From a bacterium (GTDB lineage Bacteria > JAMCPX01), in contig JAJYJX010000056.1 in assembly GCA_021789095.1 (NCBI GenBank), positions 1-13,263 on the forward strand: a stretch of DNA of 13,263 nt. The letters run 5' to 3'. Under the pieces are notes generated by a model. That model saw only the letters and a list, made by a program, of their open reading frames with translations. It had not been told where the DNA came from and ran no database searches. A program made the position numbers and the translations under genes. Position 1 is the stretch's first letter, and the number at the start of each line of letters is the position of its first letter. Below are positions 7,599 through 12,050 of the stretch, one piece after another.

Positions 7599-8243
7599 TT
7601 ATGGCTTCTCCGGTATAATGAGTGCGGCCCCGGTGCTGTTGATCACATCATGGGCGGATACGCCCGGAGCAAGCTCTTTCAAAACAAGTCCTTCACCGGT
7701 AACATCAAGTACACACAGGTTTGTTATGATCATGGATACGCATCCGTAGCCTGTTACCGGGTAAGTGAGCTTCTTTACAATCTTCGGCCTGCCATCCTTT
7801 GTTGTATGTGTCATCATGACGATGATCCTCCTTACTCCTGCGACAATGTCCATGGCACCCCCGATGCTTGGCAGCATGCCCGGTGCAGTCCAGTTTGCAA
7901 GGTCGCCTTTTTCAGAGACCTGGTAAGCGCCCATGATTGCAAGGTCAATGTGGCCTCCTCTTACCATTGCAAAGGAAATGTCACTGGCAAAAAAGCTCGC
8001 ACCTTGAATGCAGGTAACGGGCTGTTTTGCGGCATCAACAAGATCGGGATGCGTTTCCCCTTTTTGGGCAAATCCACCCATACCAAGCAGACCGTTTTCC
8101 GTATGAAAGAACACCAGTTTGTCAGCGGGTACATAATCAAGTACAAGCGTTGGCATACCGATACCGAGGTTCACATAATAGCCATCGCCGATCTCTGCCG
8201 CAGCGCGCCTTGCCATGTCTTTTTCATTCATACCAGCGGTCAT
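7599..8243 (-). CDS. Family I CoA-transferase, subunit B (3-oxoacid/acetate type)
   Basis: Beta subunit of a family I CoA-transferase (AtoA/ScoB/PcaJ type), 214 residues, the usual length. The start region ARRAAAEIGDGYYVNLGIGM fits the family. TENGLLGMGG (48-57) holds the catalytic glutamate, Glu49, that forms the covalent acyl-glutamyl and CoA-thioester intermediates. The enzyme moves CoA between an acyl-CoA donor and a free acid, working with the A subunit encoded just upstream. The natural acid cannot be told from sequence; acetoacetate, another 3-oxoacid or a pathway-specific acid are all possible. ATG 8243 has AAAGG eight bases upstream and overlaps the A-subunit gene by 20 bases. ATG 8231 would match the family N terminus better and give an 8-base overlap but has no visible ribosome binding site. 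It is the last gene of the operon. Confidence 0.93.
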   Translation of the reverse strand: MTAGMNEKDMARRAAAEIGDGYYVNLGIGMPTLVLDYVPADKLVFFHTENGLLGMGGFAQKGETHPDLVDAAKQPVTCIQGASFFASDISFAMVRGGHIDLAIMGAYQVSEKGDLANWTAPGMLPSIGGAMDIVAGVRRIIVMMTHTTKDGRPKIVKKLTYPVTGYGCVSMIITNLCVLDVTGEGLVLKELAPGVSAHDVINSTGAALIIPEKP

Positions 8244-8913
8244 ATCTTTCGCCTTTTACAATTCTGTCCACGAAGATGGCCGGGGTGTGTATGGTGCTGG
8301 GGTCCAGTTCCCCGGCATCAACAACCTCTTCAGCCTCCGCTATTGTCACGGCGGCGGCCATTGCCATAAGCGGATTGAAATTTGCGCCTGTATACCGGTA
8401 AACAAGATTGCCGCACCTGTCGCTCTTGTACGCCTTTACAAATGCAAAATCAGCTTCCAGAGGATACTCCAATATATACTGTTCGCCATTGATAGCGCGG
8501 GTTTCTTTGCCTTCGGCCAGGAGAGTACCTGCGCCTGTTTTTACATAGAATCCTCCTATGCCCGAGCCCTTTGCCCTTATGCGCTCTGCTAAAGTACCCT
8601 GGGGTACAAGCTCAAGCTCTACCATGCCTGCATCGTACAGTTCTTTAAATGATTTTGTTGCAGCAGGGTATGAACCTATAAATTTCCTGACCCTCCCTTC
8701 CTTGAAAAGGGGTGCAAGCCCATACTCATTGTCCCCCAGTCTTGAACCGGGGTTATTGCTTATTACGGTAATGTTCCTTGTTCCCTTTTTATACAGTGCA
8801 CGGATCAGGTTCTGGGGTATGCCGGCAAGCCCGAATCCGCCGAACATGATCACTGCCCCGTCTTTGACGTCGCTGATTGCCTCAGCAGAGGATTTGTATA
8901 CCTTGTTTACCAT
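8224..8913 (-). CDS. Family I CoA-transferase, subunit A
   Basis: Alpha subunit of the same enzyme (AtoD/ScoA/PcaI type), 229 residues. GGFGLAGIPQNLIRAL (25-40) is the family signature near the N terminus, ISNNPG follows near 51, and the ADFAFVKAYKSDRCGNLVY block near 154-172 is typical. It contributes the CoA-binding half of the heteromeric enzyme, while the nucleophilic glutamate is on subunit B. The ATG at 8913 shares a base with the TAA of the upstream DUF35 gene (TAATG), so translation is probably coupled. AAAGAG lies just upstream as a weak ribosome binding site. Linked A and B genes with overlapping ends are the rule in this family, which supports both calls. The substrate remains open; the neighbours suggest a product or starter acid of the local acyl-CoA pathway. 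Confidence 0.93.
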   Translation of the reverse strand: MVNKVYKSSAEAISDVKDGAVIMFGGFGLAGIPQNLIRALYKKGTRNITVISNNPGSRLGDNEYGLAPLFKEGRVRKFIGSYPAATKSFKELYDAGMVELELVPQGTLAERIRAKGSGIGGFYVKTGAGTLLAEGKETRAINGEQYILEYPLEADFAFVKAYKSDRCGNLVYRYTGANFNPLMAMAAAVTIAEAEEVVDAGELDPSTIHTPAIFVDRIVKGERYDRWYE

Positions 8914-9455
8914 TATGTCTCTTTGAAATAAATGTCCGTAATCCTGCCGTCCCTCTGTCCCCTGAATACGACCTTTACCTGCATTCCGACCCTTGCCCTT
9001 TTAATGTCTTTCATTTCCACATTCGAAAGGATCGCCGTATCAGTGCCGTCGAGCTTTATGTATGCAACGATGTAAGGCACCTGCTTGATATACGATGATG
9101 TTGCAAAGTACACAGTAGTGTAGCTGAGTACTCTACCAGTGCCTTTAAGCTCTGTCCATGCTGTTTTTTCATAACAGTGCGGACAGTGCGCACGCGGCGG
9201 ACAGAATACCTTGTCGCATTGGTTGCAGCGTGTTCCCATAATGCGCTTGTTCTCGAGGATCTCCCTGAAGAACCTTGACTGCCCGCCGTAAGAATATCGC
9301 ATGTTCACGTGCATTGTATCCGGGATCTCAAAAGGTGTATCTGCGCCAGTCTGTGTTGTCATATCCTTTTCAAAGGCCTTTATGACCAGTTCCTTTTTTA
9401 CGCCGATGCGCCTTGCGTTCCTGTCTGCCCATGTCAAAAATGTCCGTTTATCCAT
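8913..9455 (-). CDS. DUF35 zinc-ribbon/OB-fold protein, partner of the thiolase-like protein
   Basis: A 180-residue protein with two recognisable parts. Residues 77-94 form a rubredoxin-like zinc ribbon (C77-x2-C80 and C91-x2-C94 in CNQCDKVFCPPRAHCPHC), and residues 103-178 form an OB-fold (GTGRVLSYTTVYFATSSY at 106-123, then VPYIVAYIKLDG). This is the DUF35/OB_aCoA family. Known members pair with SCP2-type thiolases or aldolases: BbsA with BbsB in toluene degradation, the ChsH2 C-terminal domain with Ltp2 in steroid side-chain cleavage, and the archaeal acetoacetyl-CoA thiolase/HMG-CoA synthase complex. By analogy it should bind and position the acyl-CoA for the upstream thiolase-like protein. 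The N-terminal 55 residues are longer than in minimal members and contain no domain I recognise. AAGGAG lies 4 bases before the ATG. It follows the thiolase-like gene after a 259-base gap. Confidence 0.9.
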   Translation of the reverse strand: MDKRTFLTWADRNARRIGVKKELVIKAFEKDMTTQTGADTPFEIPDTMHVNMRYSYGGQSRFFREILENKRIMGTRCNQCDKVFCPPRAHCPHCYEKTAWTELKGTGRVLSYTTVYFATSSYIKQVPYIVAYIKLDGTDTAILSNVEMKDIKRARVGMQVKVVFRGQRDGRITDIYFKET

Positions 9456-9526
9456 ATGACTCCTTTTGAAAGTGAAGACTTCTTTGGTAGAGAAGAAAGA
9501 GTTTGATCCGAAGCGAAGTGAAACAC

Positions 9527-9696
9527 CTACGGACTGCCTGGAATTCTTTCGTGGTATTCTGCGTGGACTGCTTCTCTCTCAGCGTCAAAGATAAGAGTAA
9601 CTGCATTTTTAATCAGCCAATCTCGTGTATCGAAAAGAGCATTGTTTCACGAGCAGAGGAGAAAACTTTTTCTTCTATGAGTATTCTTTCATTCAC
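9527..9696 (-). pseudogene. Possible frameshifted small gene in the gap between thiolase-like and DUF35 genes
   Basis: On the minus strand AAGGAG (9711-9706) stands 9 bases before a GTG at 9696-9694. The frame reads VNERILIEEKVFSSARETM, then LFSIHEIG, and stops at TGA 9615-9613. One frame over, the sequence continues without a break as LIKNAVTLIFDAEREAVHAE then YHERIPGSP, stopping at TAG 9529-9527. The two halves have protein-like composition and would join into about 56 residues if one base were restored near 9616. I do not recognise a family. It could be a decayed gene, a sequencing or assembly error, or chance. The 70 bases between 9527 and the DUF35 start hold only that gene's ribosome binding site as far as I can see. 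Confidence 0.35.
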
Positions 9697-9714
9697 TTCG
9701 TAAATCTCCTTATT

Positions 9715-10914
9715 TTATATCCTGTCCCTTTCCAACACCAGACACACCGTCCATGCAGCGCCCGGCCCTCCTATGCTCTGGACAAGCCCGGTCTTTGCAT
9801 TTTTGATTTGCCTGTTTCCCGCCTCATCCCTCAAGTGAAGAACGATCTCGTTTGCCTGCATAATCCCTGTTGCACCGACGGCATGGCCGCACCCTATCAA
9901 TCCTCCGCTCACATTCACAGGCAGCCTGCCGCCGCGCTCTACGATGCCTTCATCAATAAGCCTGCCGCCTCCCCCCTCTTTGCAGAAGAAGCAGTCCTCA
10001 TAAGCGATGATCTCCGTGCCCGTAAATGCATCGTGCAGCTCCGCAAGGTCGATTTCATCCACAGGATCTTTAATGCCTGCCATAGCATAGGCCTTTTTTG
10101 CGGCTATCCTGCTGGATTCAAAACTGTAGAGGTCTTTCCTGTTGCCTATGACTGCCCAGTCAAGTGCAGCTCCAATTCCCCTTATCCATACAGGGGGCTT
10201 TTTGAATGTCTTTGCGACATCCTCTGATGAAAGGATGAGTACTGCAGAGCCTTCCGAGTAGAGACAGTTGTCAAAGCGTTTGAACGGATATGCGATCATG
10301 GGTGACCTCATAACATCATCAACAGTCAGGGCAATTGGACTCTGTGCAACGGGGTTCAGCAGTGCATTGCGGTGGTTCTTAACAGAAACCTTTGCCATCT
10401 GCATCTCTGTAGGGTTCCCGTATTTTTCAAGGTGCGCAATGGTTGTAAGTGCGAATGACCCTGCTGCTGTCCTGCCTGTAGGCTGTTCATAAGTCATGTC
10501 GGCTGTATACGAGATAGCTTTAAGCACCTCGGGGCTTGATTTCCCTGTTTCATAATCGAAGCAGTCGGCAGACTTTTCTACTCCAACAACAAGGCATACG
10601 TCATAAAGCCCGGACGCTACCTGCGCAAAGCCCGCGCTTATCGCACTGCCGCCTGTTGCCCCGCCTGTAGAAACCCTTATTGCGGGCTTTGGCGCCATGC
10701 CTATATAATCGTGGACAAACAGGTCGGGCTGGAACTGCCTTTCGAAAAAATCATTGTATATGCCGTACACAACACAGTCTATCTTGTCCTTTGCTATGCC
10801 TGCATCATCAAGAGCCATCTTTACCGCATCAAACGCAAGCTCGAAATAGGTCTTTTCAATCCAGCGGGACCTGAACTGAGTTGTGCCTATGCCGACGACA
10901 CCTACCTTCCTCAT
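9715..10914 (-). CDS. SCP2-type thiolase-like protein lacking both catalytic cysteines
   Basis: A 399-residue protein of the thiolase fold, SCP2/lipid-transfer type, beginning MRKVGVVGIGTTQF. The conserved regions are recognisable: STGGATGGSA (82-91), where thiolases have the CxS nucleophile; ELHDAFTGTE (292-301), the HDCF loop with His294; SGGLIGCGHAVGATG (336-350), the GHP loop with His344; and QSIGGPGAAWTVC near the end. The nucleophilic Cys position is Gly85 and the HDCF Cys is Ala296, so ordinary thiolysis looks unlikely, although Cys342 next to the GHP-like loop could take part. Candidates are a retro-aldolase like Ltp2, or another carbon-carbon lyase or ligase, probably with the DUF35 protein. 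Start: ATG 10914 shares its A with the stop TGA of the acyl-CoA dehydrogenase gene and has AGAGAG five bases upstream. A GTG at 10917 would add one residue. Confidence 0.88.
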   Translation of the reverse strand: MRKVGVVGIGTTQFRSRWIEKTYFELAFDAVKMALDDAGIAKDKIDCVVYGIYNDFFERQFQPDLFVHDYIGMAPKPAIRVSTGGATGGSAISAGFAQVASGLYDVCLVVGVEKSADCFDYETGKSSPEVLKAISYTADMTYEQPTGRTAAGSFALTTIAHLEKYGNPTEMQMAKVSVKNHRNALLNPVAQSPIALTVDDVMRSPMIAYPFKRFDNCLYSEGSAVLILSSEDVAKTFKKPPVWIRGIGAALDWAVIGNRKDLYSFESSRIAAKKAYAMAGIKDPVDEIDLAELHDAFTGTEIIAYEDCFFCKEGGGGRLIDEGIVERGGRLPVNVSGGLIGCGHAVGATGIMQANEIVLHLRDEAGNRQIKNAKTGLVQSIGGPGAAWTVCLVLERDRI

Positions 10915-12050
10915 CACAGCTCTCTTGAAACAACGAGCTTCTGTACCTCAATGGTACCTTGGGCTGAAATCCATGAGAATGCGTCCCTGAGATACCTTTC
11001 AACCGGGTACTCCGGGGATGCGCCGTATGCGCCGAGCACCCTGCTGGCGAGCTCCACTGCCTGGACGAGCGTCTCCGCGGCATAGAACTTTGCCATGGAG
11101 GTTTCTTTTTTGTGCTTCATGCCTTTGTCATGCATGAATGCAACACGGTATGTAAGCAGTCTCGACGCATCTATCCTTGCGGCAAGCTCGGAAAGCGGGA
11201 ATGCAATCGCCTGGTTATCGATAATAGGCTTGCCTGCAACCATCCTTTGCTTTGCAAATTTGACAGCAGTATCAAATGCAGCCGATGCAAGGCCTGTAAA
11301 CCCAGCTGCAAGGCTTATCCTTGTTGTATTAAGGATCTCAAGTGCGAGCTTCAATCCTTCATCGGCCTTACCCAACAGATTCTGCTCAGGAACAAACAGG
11401 TCATCAAGCCTTATATTGAATGCACGGTGTCCCCTCAGTCCCATGGTTTGCGCATGGCTCTCGAACACAAGTCCTTCGGGCTTGCCCTCGACAATAAAAC
11501 CGCTGATGCCCTTCCCGCCTTTTTCAGGAGATGTCTTCGCAAAAAGGATATAAAATTCCGATATATCTGCAAAAGTAATAAGCCTTTTCCTGCCGTTCAA
11601 CAGGTAGCCCTTTTCTGTCTTTTTCGCCGTGGATTTCATACCCGCAGGATCGGATCCCGGGCCTTCATCTGTCAGTGCATAACAACCGACCATGCCTTGT
11701 GCCAATCGTGTAAGATAATTTTTCTTTTGCTGTTCACTGCCGCCGAACAGCAAACCATGAACAAACAGCTGGGCAATCTCTACAAGCGGGATAAGTGCTG
11801 GACATGCATATCCAACCTGTTCCGCAACAACGCAGACATCAAGCGTGCTGAGACCCATGCCGTTGTAAGCCTTGGGTACCGACATGGCAGTCAGGCGCAT
11901 AGGTGGAGCAAGGAGTTTTTTTACGAGTGTTTCGGGAATTACGTCGTCTTGGTCGATCTTTTCAGCGAGGGGTATCACCTCTTTTGCCATATAGTCCCTT
12001 GTCTGGGCGCGCAGCTTTATCTGCGCATCGGTTAAAAATACATCTGTCAT
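10914..12050 (-). CDS. Acyl-CoA dehydrogenase family protein with Gln at the catalytic-base position
   Basis: FAD-dependent acyl-CoA dehydrogenase fold, 378 residues, normal length. The N-terminal helical domain runs to about 120. The middle beta domain has YALTDEGPGSDPAGMKSTAK (124-143) and GYLLNGRKRLIT (148-159), which bind FAD and substrate, and the C-terminal helical domain has PVERYLRDAF (349-358). These enzymes normally introduce an alpha-beta double bond and pass electrons to electron-transfer flavoprotein. The catalytic base of medium-chain enzymes, the Glu of the YEGT motif, is Gln364 here (SAQGT, codon CAA). The alternative Glu of isovaleryl- and long-chain enzymes, on another helix, aligns with Thr243. 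So neither usual base is present. I chose ATG 12050 with GGAGGG just upstream; ATG 12086 would add 12 residues without family support. This is the first gene of the operon. Confidence 0.92.
   Translation of the reverse strand: MTDVFLTDAQIKLRAQTRDYMAKEVIPLAEKIDQDDVIPETLVKKLLAPPMRLTAMSVPKAYNGMGLSTLDVCVVAEQVGYACPALIPLVEIAQLFVHGLLFGGSEQQKKNYLTRLAQGMVGCYALTDEGPGSDPAGMKSTAKKTEKGYLLNGRKRLITFADISEFYILFAKTSPEKGGKGISGFIVEGKPEGLVFESHAQTMGLRGHRAFNIRLDDLFVPEQNLLGKADEGLKLALEILNTTRISLAAGFTGLASAAFDTAVKFAKQRMVAGKPIIDNQAIAFPLSELAARIDASRLLTYRVAFMHDKGMKHKKETSMAKFYAAETLVQAVELASRVLGAYGASPEYPVERYLRDAFSWISAQGTIEVQKLVVSREL

Follow-up and report, generated by a model that had tools for sequence, protein, structure and literature searches.

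The stretch of DNA analysed here (the window, 13,263 nucleotides of contig JAJYJX010000056.1) encodes a thiolase-fold protein, hereafter T, in which the nucleophilic cysteine of thiolases is replaced by glycine. The locus raises the question of what such a protein does together with the DUF35 protein encoded next to it. An initial annotation, made from the sequence, noted the loss of both catalytic cysteines and proposed an aldolase or another C-C bond enzyme instead of a thiolase. The relevant features of the window are:

7599..8243, minus strand: 3-oxoacid CoA-transferase subunit B family (TIGR02428, 282.6 bits, cut-off 243.55)
8224..8913, minus strand: 3-oxoacid CoA-transferase subunit A family (TIGR02429, 293.7 bits, cut-off 128.5)
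8913..9455, minus strand: DUF35 / ChsH2-C partner, 180 aa, zinc ribbon Cx2Cx10Cx2C plus OB fold
9715..10917, minus strand: T, 400 aa, thiolase-fold protein with Gly86 for the nucleophilic Cys, HDAF and GCGHAV
9883..9894, minus strand: GCGH codons of T (residues 342-345), with the invariant Cys343 and His345
10642..10671, minus strand: STGGATGGSA codons of T (residues 83-92), the former nucleophile loop
10914..12086, minus strand: acyl-CoA dehydrogenase-like protein, its stop overlapping the start of T

A thiolase homologue with glycine in place of the nucleophile

T starts with GTG at 10917 or, one codon later, with ATG at 10914; read on the plus strand, 9715-10914 is interrupted by stops. Residue numbers given here follow the GTG, and those of the initial annotation, counted from the ATG, are one lower (Gly85, His294, Ala296, Cys342 and His344). 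The characteristic motifs are STGGATGGSA (residues 83-92), HDAF (295-298) and GCGHAVG (342-348, with C343 and H345).

The Pfam model Thiolase_C_1 matches T at 134 bits, over its cut-off, which places the protein in the thiolase superfamily, and a PDB search returned 7yvy, 4yzo, 6esq and 6hsj as its closest relatives. When T is aligned to 7yvy, 6esq and 6hsj, the nucleophilic cysteine column holds G86 and the HDCF cysteine column holds A297, as had been read from the sequence at the outset. Set beside SCP2-type and DUF35-linked thiolases, T has the fold and lacks both the nucleophilic cysteine of the C[AS][ST]G loop and the cysteine of HDCF. No NCBIfam model reached its cut-off on T; the top name, below cut-off, was 'thiolase domain-containing protein', about what had been forecast for database labels. 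Like the benzoylsuccinyl-CoA thiolase BbsAB (7pxp), T combines the thiolase fold with a DUF35 partner and with HDAF, which the BbsB sequence also reads; unlike BbsB, it scores only 126.7 bits with the BbsB equivalog NF053628, far under the cut-off of 750.

The signature GGATGG, HDAF and GCGHAV is kept in all 24 orthologs and paralogs of T, which cover 59-100% identity, several genera and other lineages. T therefore belongs to a real subfamily, and this conservation rules out both a sequencing error and a pseudogene. Orthologs are found at 88-92% identity within the window's family and at 66-69% in one Desulfobacterales MAG and other MAGs, and the window's genome holds, on another contig, a T-type paralog with the same signature (61% identity). 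At a limit of E 1e-90, any match to T was confined to 5 of the 85 genomes from one class and to 12 of the 297 from one phylum. The identities in this search form two sets with a gap between them: T proteins lie at 66-69%, and the rest, which with few exceptions have a cysteine nucleophile, at 43-47%. Plasmid-borne relatives, mostly labelled thiolase, were all below 40% identity among the matches listed.

Retained and replaced active-site residues

Neither the 24 T proteins nor the 39 aligned Cys-thiolases vary at His295, Asp296 or His345; the two histidines had correctly been described as retained. Further residues are invariant in the 24 T proteins and specific to them, among them Y51, N55, R60, D65, N217, Y220, E222, C343 and S381. 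A set of invariant residues of its own, next to the kept histidines and HD pair, is what would be expected of a working enzyme. T might nevertheless be a catalytically dead thiolase homologue, acting only as a scaffold or regulator of its complex, a reading that would suit the loss of both catalytic cysteines and the absence of the usual catalytic glutamates from the neighbouring dehydrogenase-like protein (see below). We regard this as very improbable given that His295, Asp296, His345 and the subfamily-specific polar residues persist in 24 of 24 proteins, and that 60-70% identity is maintained across distant lineages in an operon of its own.

The two cysteine replacements differ in weight. 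Because alanine occupies the HDCF position in 4 of the 39 Cys-thiolases, 7yvy included, Ala297 by itself is no evidence against thiolase activity, and HDAF, which 7yvy combines with a nucleophilic cysteine, was rejected as the sole mark of a non-thiolase. Of the original argument from two lost cysteines, the part resting on the glycine stands and the part resting on alanine is weakened; only the loss of the nucleophile is telling.

Cys343 is found in 24 of 24 T proteins, in 26 of 29 Gly-type proteins with the GH histidine and in none of the 39 Cys-thiolases, counts that were taken over related sequences and do not give a number of independent events. This distribution would agree with a thiolase whose nucleophile has been relocated, Cys343, which precedes the GHA histidine by two residues, attacking a 3-oxoacyl-CoA. 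We consider such a relocation unlikely: normal thiolases carry mostly K, F or R, and also L or A, at this position, so that it does not have to face the reaction centre; TcLtp2 carries Glu there; and the gene context described below includes hydratases, with a hydroxyacyl-CoA dehydrogenase not identified.

Predicted fold and phylogeny

An AlphaFold2 model of T, built from an 11-sequence alignment (mean pLDDT 67.9, pTM 0.77), resembles both thiolases and thiolase-fold aldolases along its full length. It aligns to 6et9 with Z 42.0 (rmsd 2.7, 358 aligned), to 7yvy with Z 41.0, to Sal with Z 35.5 and to Ltp2 with Z 34.3, and structural matches were also obtained by Foldseek. Because pLDDT is below 50 in the active-site loops, we draw no residue geometry from the model, including the direction of the C343 side chain. 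Both the modelled structure and pairwise identity put T nearer to the thiolases 7yvy and 6esq than to Sal or Ltp2. Both 7yvy (P. furiosus thiolase) and 6esq (Methanothermococcus acetoacetyl-CoA thiolase, DUF35-linked), its best sequence and fold matches, have the GH histidine, and 7yvy has HDAF in common with T; unlike T, both have the nucleophilic cysteine (ACASG) and lack C343.

A tree was computed from 69 sequences with the active-site columns removed. One branch (support 95/90) divides 33 glycine or gapped rows, including T, TcLtp2 (6ok1) and CtSal (9myr), from 36 rows with Cys, Ser or Pro, and the T family branch has support of 100/98. Forcing T alone among the Cys-thiolases was rejected (p-AU 0.0006), but an independent loss of the nucleophile, with T and its nearest Gly-type relatives placed there together, was not (p-AU 0.24), both constrained groups having been named after the tree was seen. 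On account of the latter value the kinship of T with the aldolases is not firm; common descent with Ltp2 and Sal is likely but not settled.

Among the Cys-less structures, the archaeal thiolase-like protein ST0096 (4yzo) resembles T in having its nucleophile replaced and differs in the replacement itself, serine (NTSGSGG), in HDMA, in the absence of C343 and in grouping with the Cys-thiolases in the tree. It is part of a small group related to Cys-thiolases (L030, L033, L064 and 4yzo) in which Ser or Pro takes the place of the nucleophile, alongside HDA or HDM; this is another independent nucleophile change.

Gene context of T

The minus-strand order in the window is acyl-CoA dehydrogenase-like protein, T, DUF35, and 3-oxoacid CoA-transferase A and B, and the stop/start overlap makes it likely that the first two genes share one operon. 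The same order is found at three further loci (L009, L010 and L048), and at L012 without the CoA-transferase. About 260 bases (9456-9714) without an assigned gene separate T from DUF35 in the window; L009 and L010 have a comparable spacing of 200-270 bases, and L012 and L048 do not.

A DUF35 gene adjoins T in all T loci examined, and the two proteins may form a complex. In nine T orthologs outside the window's family, DUF35 always follows T. The fullest ortholog clusters (L121 and L126) comprise a TRAP transporter (DctPQM), T, DUF35, BKACE, an acyl-CoA ligase, a MaoC hydratase and an acyl-CoA dehydrogenase. Two others (L015 and L122) have the full cluster minus the transporter, L124 is without both the transporter and an adjacent acyl-CoA dehydrogenase, and L013, L014, L123 and L125 have shorter or different clusters. 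At seven loci of the nearest Cys-thiolases, DUF35 is present with neither BKACE nor a T-type MaoC. No hydroxyacyl-CoA dehydrogenase was identified among the neighbours of T that are annotated, which are not all of them. A ligase, a dehydrogenase and a hydratase beside T-DUF35, with no such enzyme identified, give the layout already described for aldolytic beta-oxidation of steroid side chains, a process that the core of the ortholog clusters fits; in having a hydratase beside T-DUF35, the clusters resemble Shy-Sal and ChsH1/ChsH2-Ltp2. DUF35 itself also stands beside true thiolases (6esq; L127-L134). It was accordingly rejected as a mark of an aldolase, and the DUF35 neighbour carries less weight in this direction than the initial annotation gave it.

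The window's own T operon contains no hydratase; a MaoC pair lies elsewhere in the genome in all six window-family genomes searched. The acyl-CoA dehydrogenase-like neighbour, in the window as well as at L009, L010 (6856-8001), L012 and L048, is missing both usual catalytic glutamates, with LNTTR in place of the usual L-x-E-R and AQGT in place of YEGT. The two positions, here Thr and Gln, are those at which we take ordinary acyl-CoA dehydrogenases to have their catalytic Glu. Judged by their residues, T and its neighbour would be two adjoining genes with altered active sites. Since the window operon lacks a hydratase and the neighbour lacks these glutamates, the pathway in the window may differ from that of the orthologs.

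Comparison with thiolase-fold aldolases

T resembles the steroid side-chain aldolase CtSal-ShyDUF35 of Comamonas testosteroni (9myr) in its thiolase fold, its DUF35 partner, its nucleophile glycine within GGA[ST], its placement among genes for a MaoC hydratase and acyl-CoA enzymes, and its side of the tree; the structural alignment of the two gives about 25% identity. CtSal, reported to be unable to perform thiolysis because of its glycine, is a measured retro-aldolase. A substrate model has the backbone amide of its Gly89 touching the beta-hydroxyl, and both Tyr302 and Cys304 are essential, Y302F abolishing activity (PMC12329534). In T, His295, Ala297 and His345 stand in place of Tyr302, Cys304 and Gln352 of Sal (YDCY), and its partner shows a C4 pattern, in contrast to the C3H1 zinc site in Shy's DUF35.

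TcLtp2-ChsH2DUF35 (6ok1), a steroid C3 side-chain aldolase, likewise has glycine for the nucleophilic cysteine and a DUF35 partner, and its catalytic pair is Tyr294 and Tyr344 (PMC12329534). Counted by hand from the TcLtp2 sequence, the distance from HDAF (YDHF in TcLtp2) to the GH/AY position is 50 residues in both proteins, which pairs Y294/H296/E342/Y344 with H295/A297/C343/H345 of T. Histidine thus occupies both catalytic tyrosine places, and Cys343 that of a glutamate. T has the glycine common to the wider Ltp2/Sal type but neither YDHF with Tyr294 and Tyr344 nor YDCY with Tyr302 and Cys304. As it shares the aldolases' glycine and neither one's acid-base residues, we do not file it as Ltp2 or Sal, and the direct analogy with Ltp2 drawn initially breaks down at the residue level (Tyr, and Tyr or Gln, against His295 and His345). 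Histidine at the Sal/Ltp2 tyrosine position and alanine at the position of the essential Cys304 of CtSal count against T as an aldolase, and so do its greater closeness to thiolases in fold and identity, the p-AU of 0.24 and, in the window's operon, the missing hydratase and the altered dehydrogenase-like neighbour. When the literature on sulfate reducers was searched for a published thiolase-like aldolase with DUF35, only the Sal paper (PMC12329534) came up.

A proposed retro-aldol reaction and its product

The strong part of the evidence for the aldolase reading is the nucleophile glycine, together with the tree and the gene context. We therefore think that T and its DUF35 partner are probably, though by no means certainly, a CoA-dependent retro-aldolase (a CoA-thioester C-C lyase), possibly reversible, and not a thiolase. 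The initial proposal is upheld in this respect by the glycine's conservation, the tree and the gene context; its arguments from HDAF and DUF35 are weakened, its direct analogy with Ltp2 fails, and the invariant Cys343 as a possible alternative nucleophile lowers its strength further.

For the reaction, we infer the following course. T would keep the thiolase pocket and bind there a beta-hydroxyacyl-CoA, made in the orthologs by the acyl-CoA ligase, acyl-CoA dehydrogenase and MaoC hydratase. The Gly86 backbone, in place of the nucleophilic cysteine, would give room to and bind the beta-hydroxyl, comparable to Gly89 of CtSal. One retained histidine, His295 or His345, would take the beta-hydroxyl proton, the C-alpha/C-beta bond would be cleaved with the enolate of acetyl-CoA (or propionyl-CoA) sitting in the old oxyanion hole, and a proton would be given back by the other histidine or by Cys343.

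The retained oxyanion-hole histidines and missing nucleophile would equally suit some other enolate-forming enzyme on CoA esters, for example a malonyl- or alkylmalonyl-type CoA decarboxylase, comparable to ketosynthases with a lost cysteine. TbSLP of the same superfamily decarboxylates malonyl-CoA, very slowly, but CtSal, which is also Gly-type, showed no malonyl-CoA decarboxylase activity (PMC12329534). As the ligase, dehydrogenase and MaoC hydratase encoded nearby speak for a beta-hydroxyacyl-CoA instead, decarboxylation seems to us an unlikely function.

Within the aldolase reading, the neighbours of T bear on the product. BKACE converts a free beta-keto acid and acetyl-CoA into acetoacetate and an acyl-CoA (PMC6365646, PMC4922564). 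None was found in the window's family, including four well-covered genomes, and the 3-oxoacid CoA-transferase occupies the same place; in the window, this transferase could take up a 3-oxo acid product of T. Either enzyme would be of use if the product of T were a free 3-oxo acid, as it would be from a 3-hydroxy-3-alkylglutaryl-CoA. We tentatively suggest, as a possibility that we ourselves rate as doubtful, that T-DUF35 is a histidine-based thiolase-fold aldolase that cleaves substrates of the 3-hydroxy-3-alkylglutaryl-CoA type into acetyl-CoA and a free 3-oxo acid. If true, T-DUF35 would do the job of HMG-CoA lyase with an unrelated protein. No classical HMG-CoA lyase scored above cut-off in the four well-covered genomes of the window's family; three genomes with T orthologs do have one, which weakens the idea that T is a plain HMG-CoA lyase replacement everywhere.

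Other Cys-less relatives

The 61% paralog of T (L053 on contig C105 of the window's genome; L050, L051 and L052) lies beside DUF35 and ArgJ in 4 of 4 genomes and near a DUF2889 protein in 3 of the 4, with no beta-oxidation genes directly adjoining. Other Cys-less types occur as well. Two related genomes (L157 4298-9767 and L158 4401-9740) have separate clusters of an acyl-CoA dehydrogenase, another Cys-less thiolase-like protein (CGGTSS, EVYDVF/EVYGVF), DUF35, one or more MaoC genes and an aldehyde dehydrogenase, which looks like a second aldolytic pathway; in the window's genome (L156), what was found together of this cluster was limited to the MaoC pair and the aldehyde dehydrogenase. On contig C10 of the window's genome (L054 5082-8398), two adjacent thiolase-like genes, one with TGGTTG/VYSGF and the other with a gap of three residues in its nucleophile loop, both without the GH histidine, are flanked by two DUF35 genes and possibly encode a heteromeric complex. 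Another Gly-type subfamily (GGGATGG/HDAY/ACGHP) is encoded on contig C148 of the same genome (L062 358-1668), and L135 (4651-9332) has two tandem Gly-type genes of further subfamilies, with DUF35s and a MaoC gene between them.

Significance

The T family is a coherent group of 'thiolases' that are most likely incapable of thiolysis. Its active-site set Gly/His/Ala/Cys/His is a third one beside those of Ltp2 and Sal, and, with both histidines and no nucleophile, T offers a point between thiolases and aldolases for studies of activity change. The conserved operon of the orthologs is the place to look for the substrate. More broadly, T suggests that aldolytic beta-oxidation occurs outside steroid degradation.
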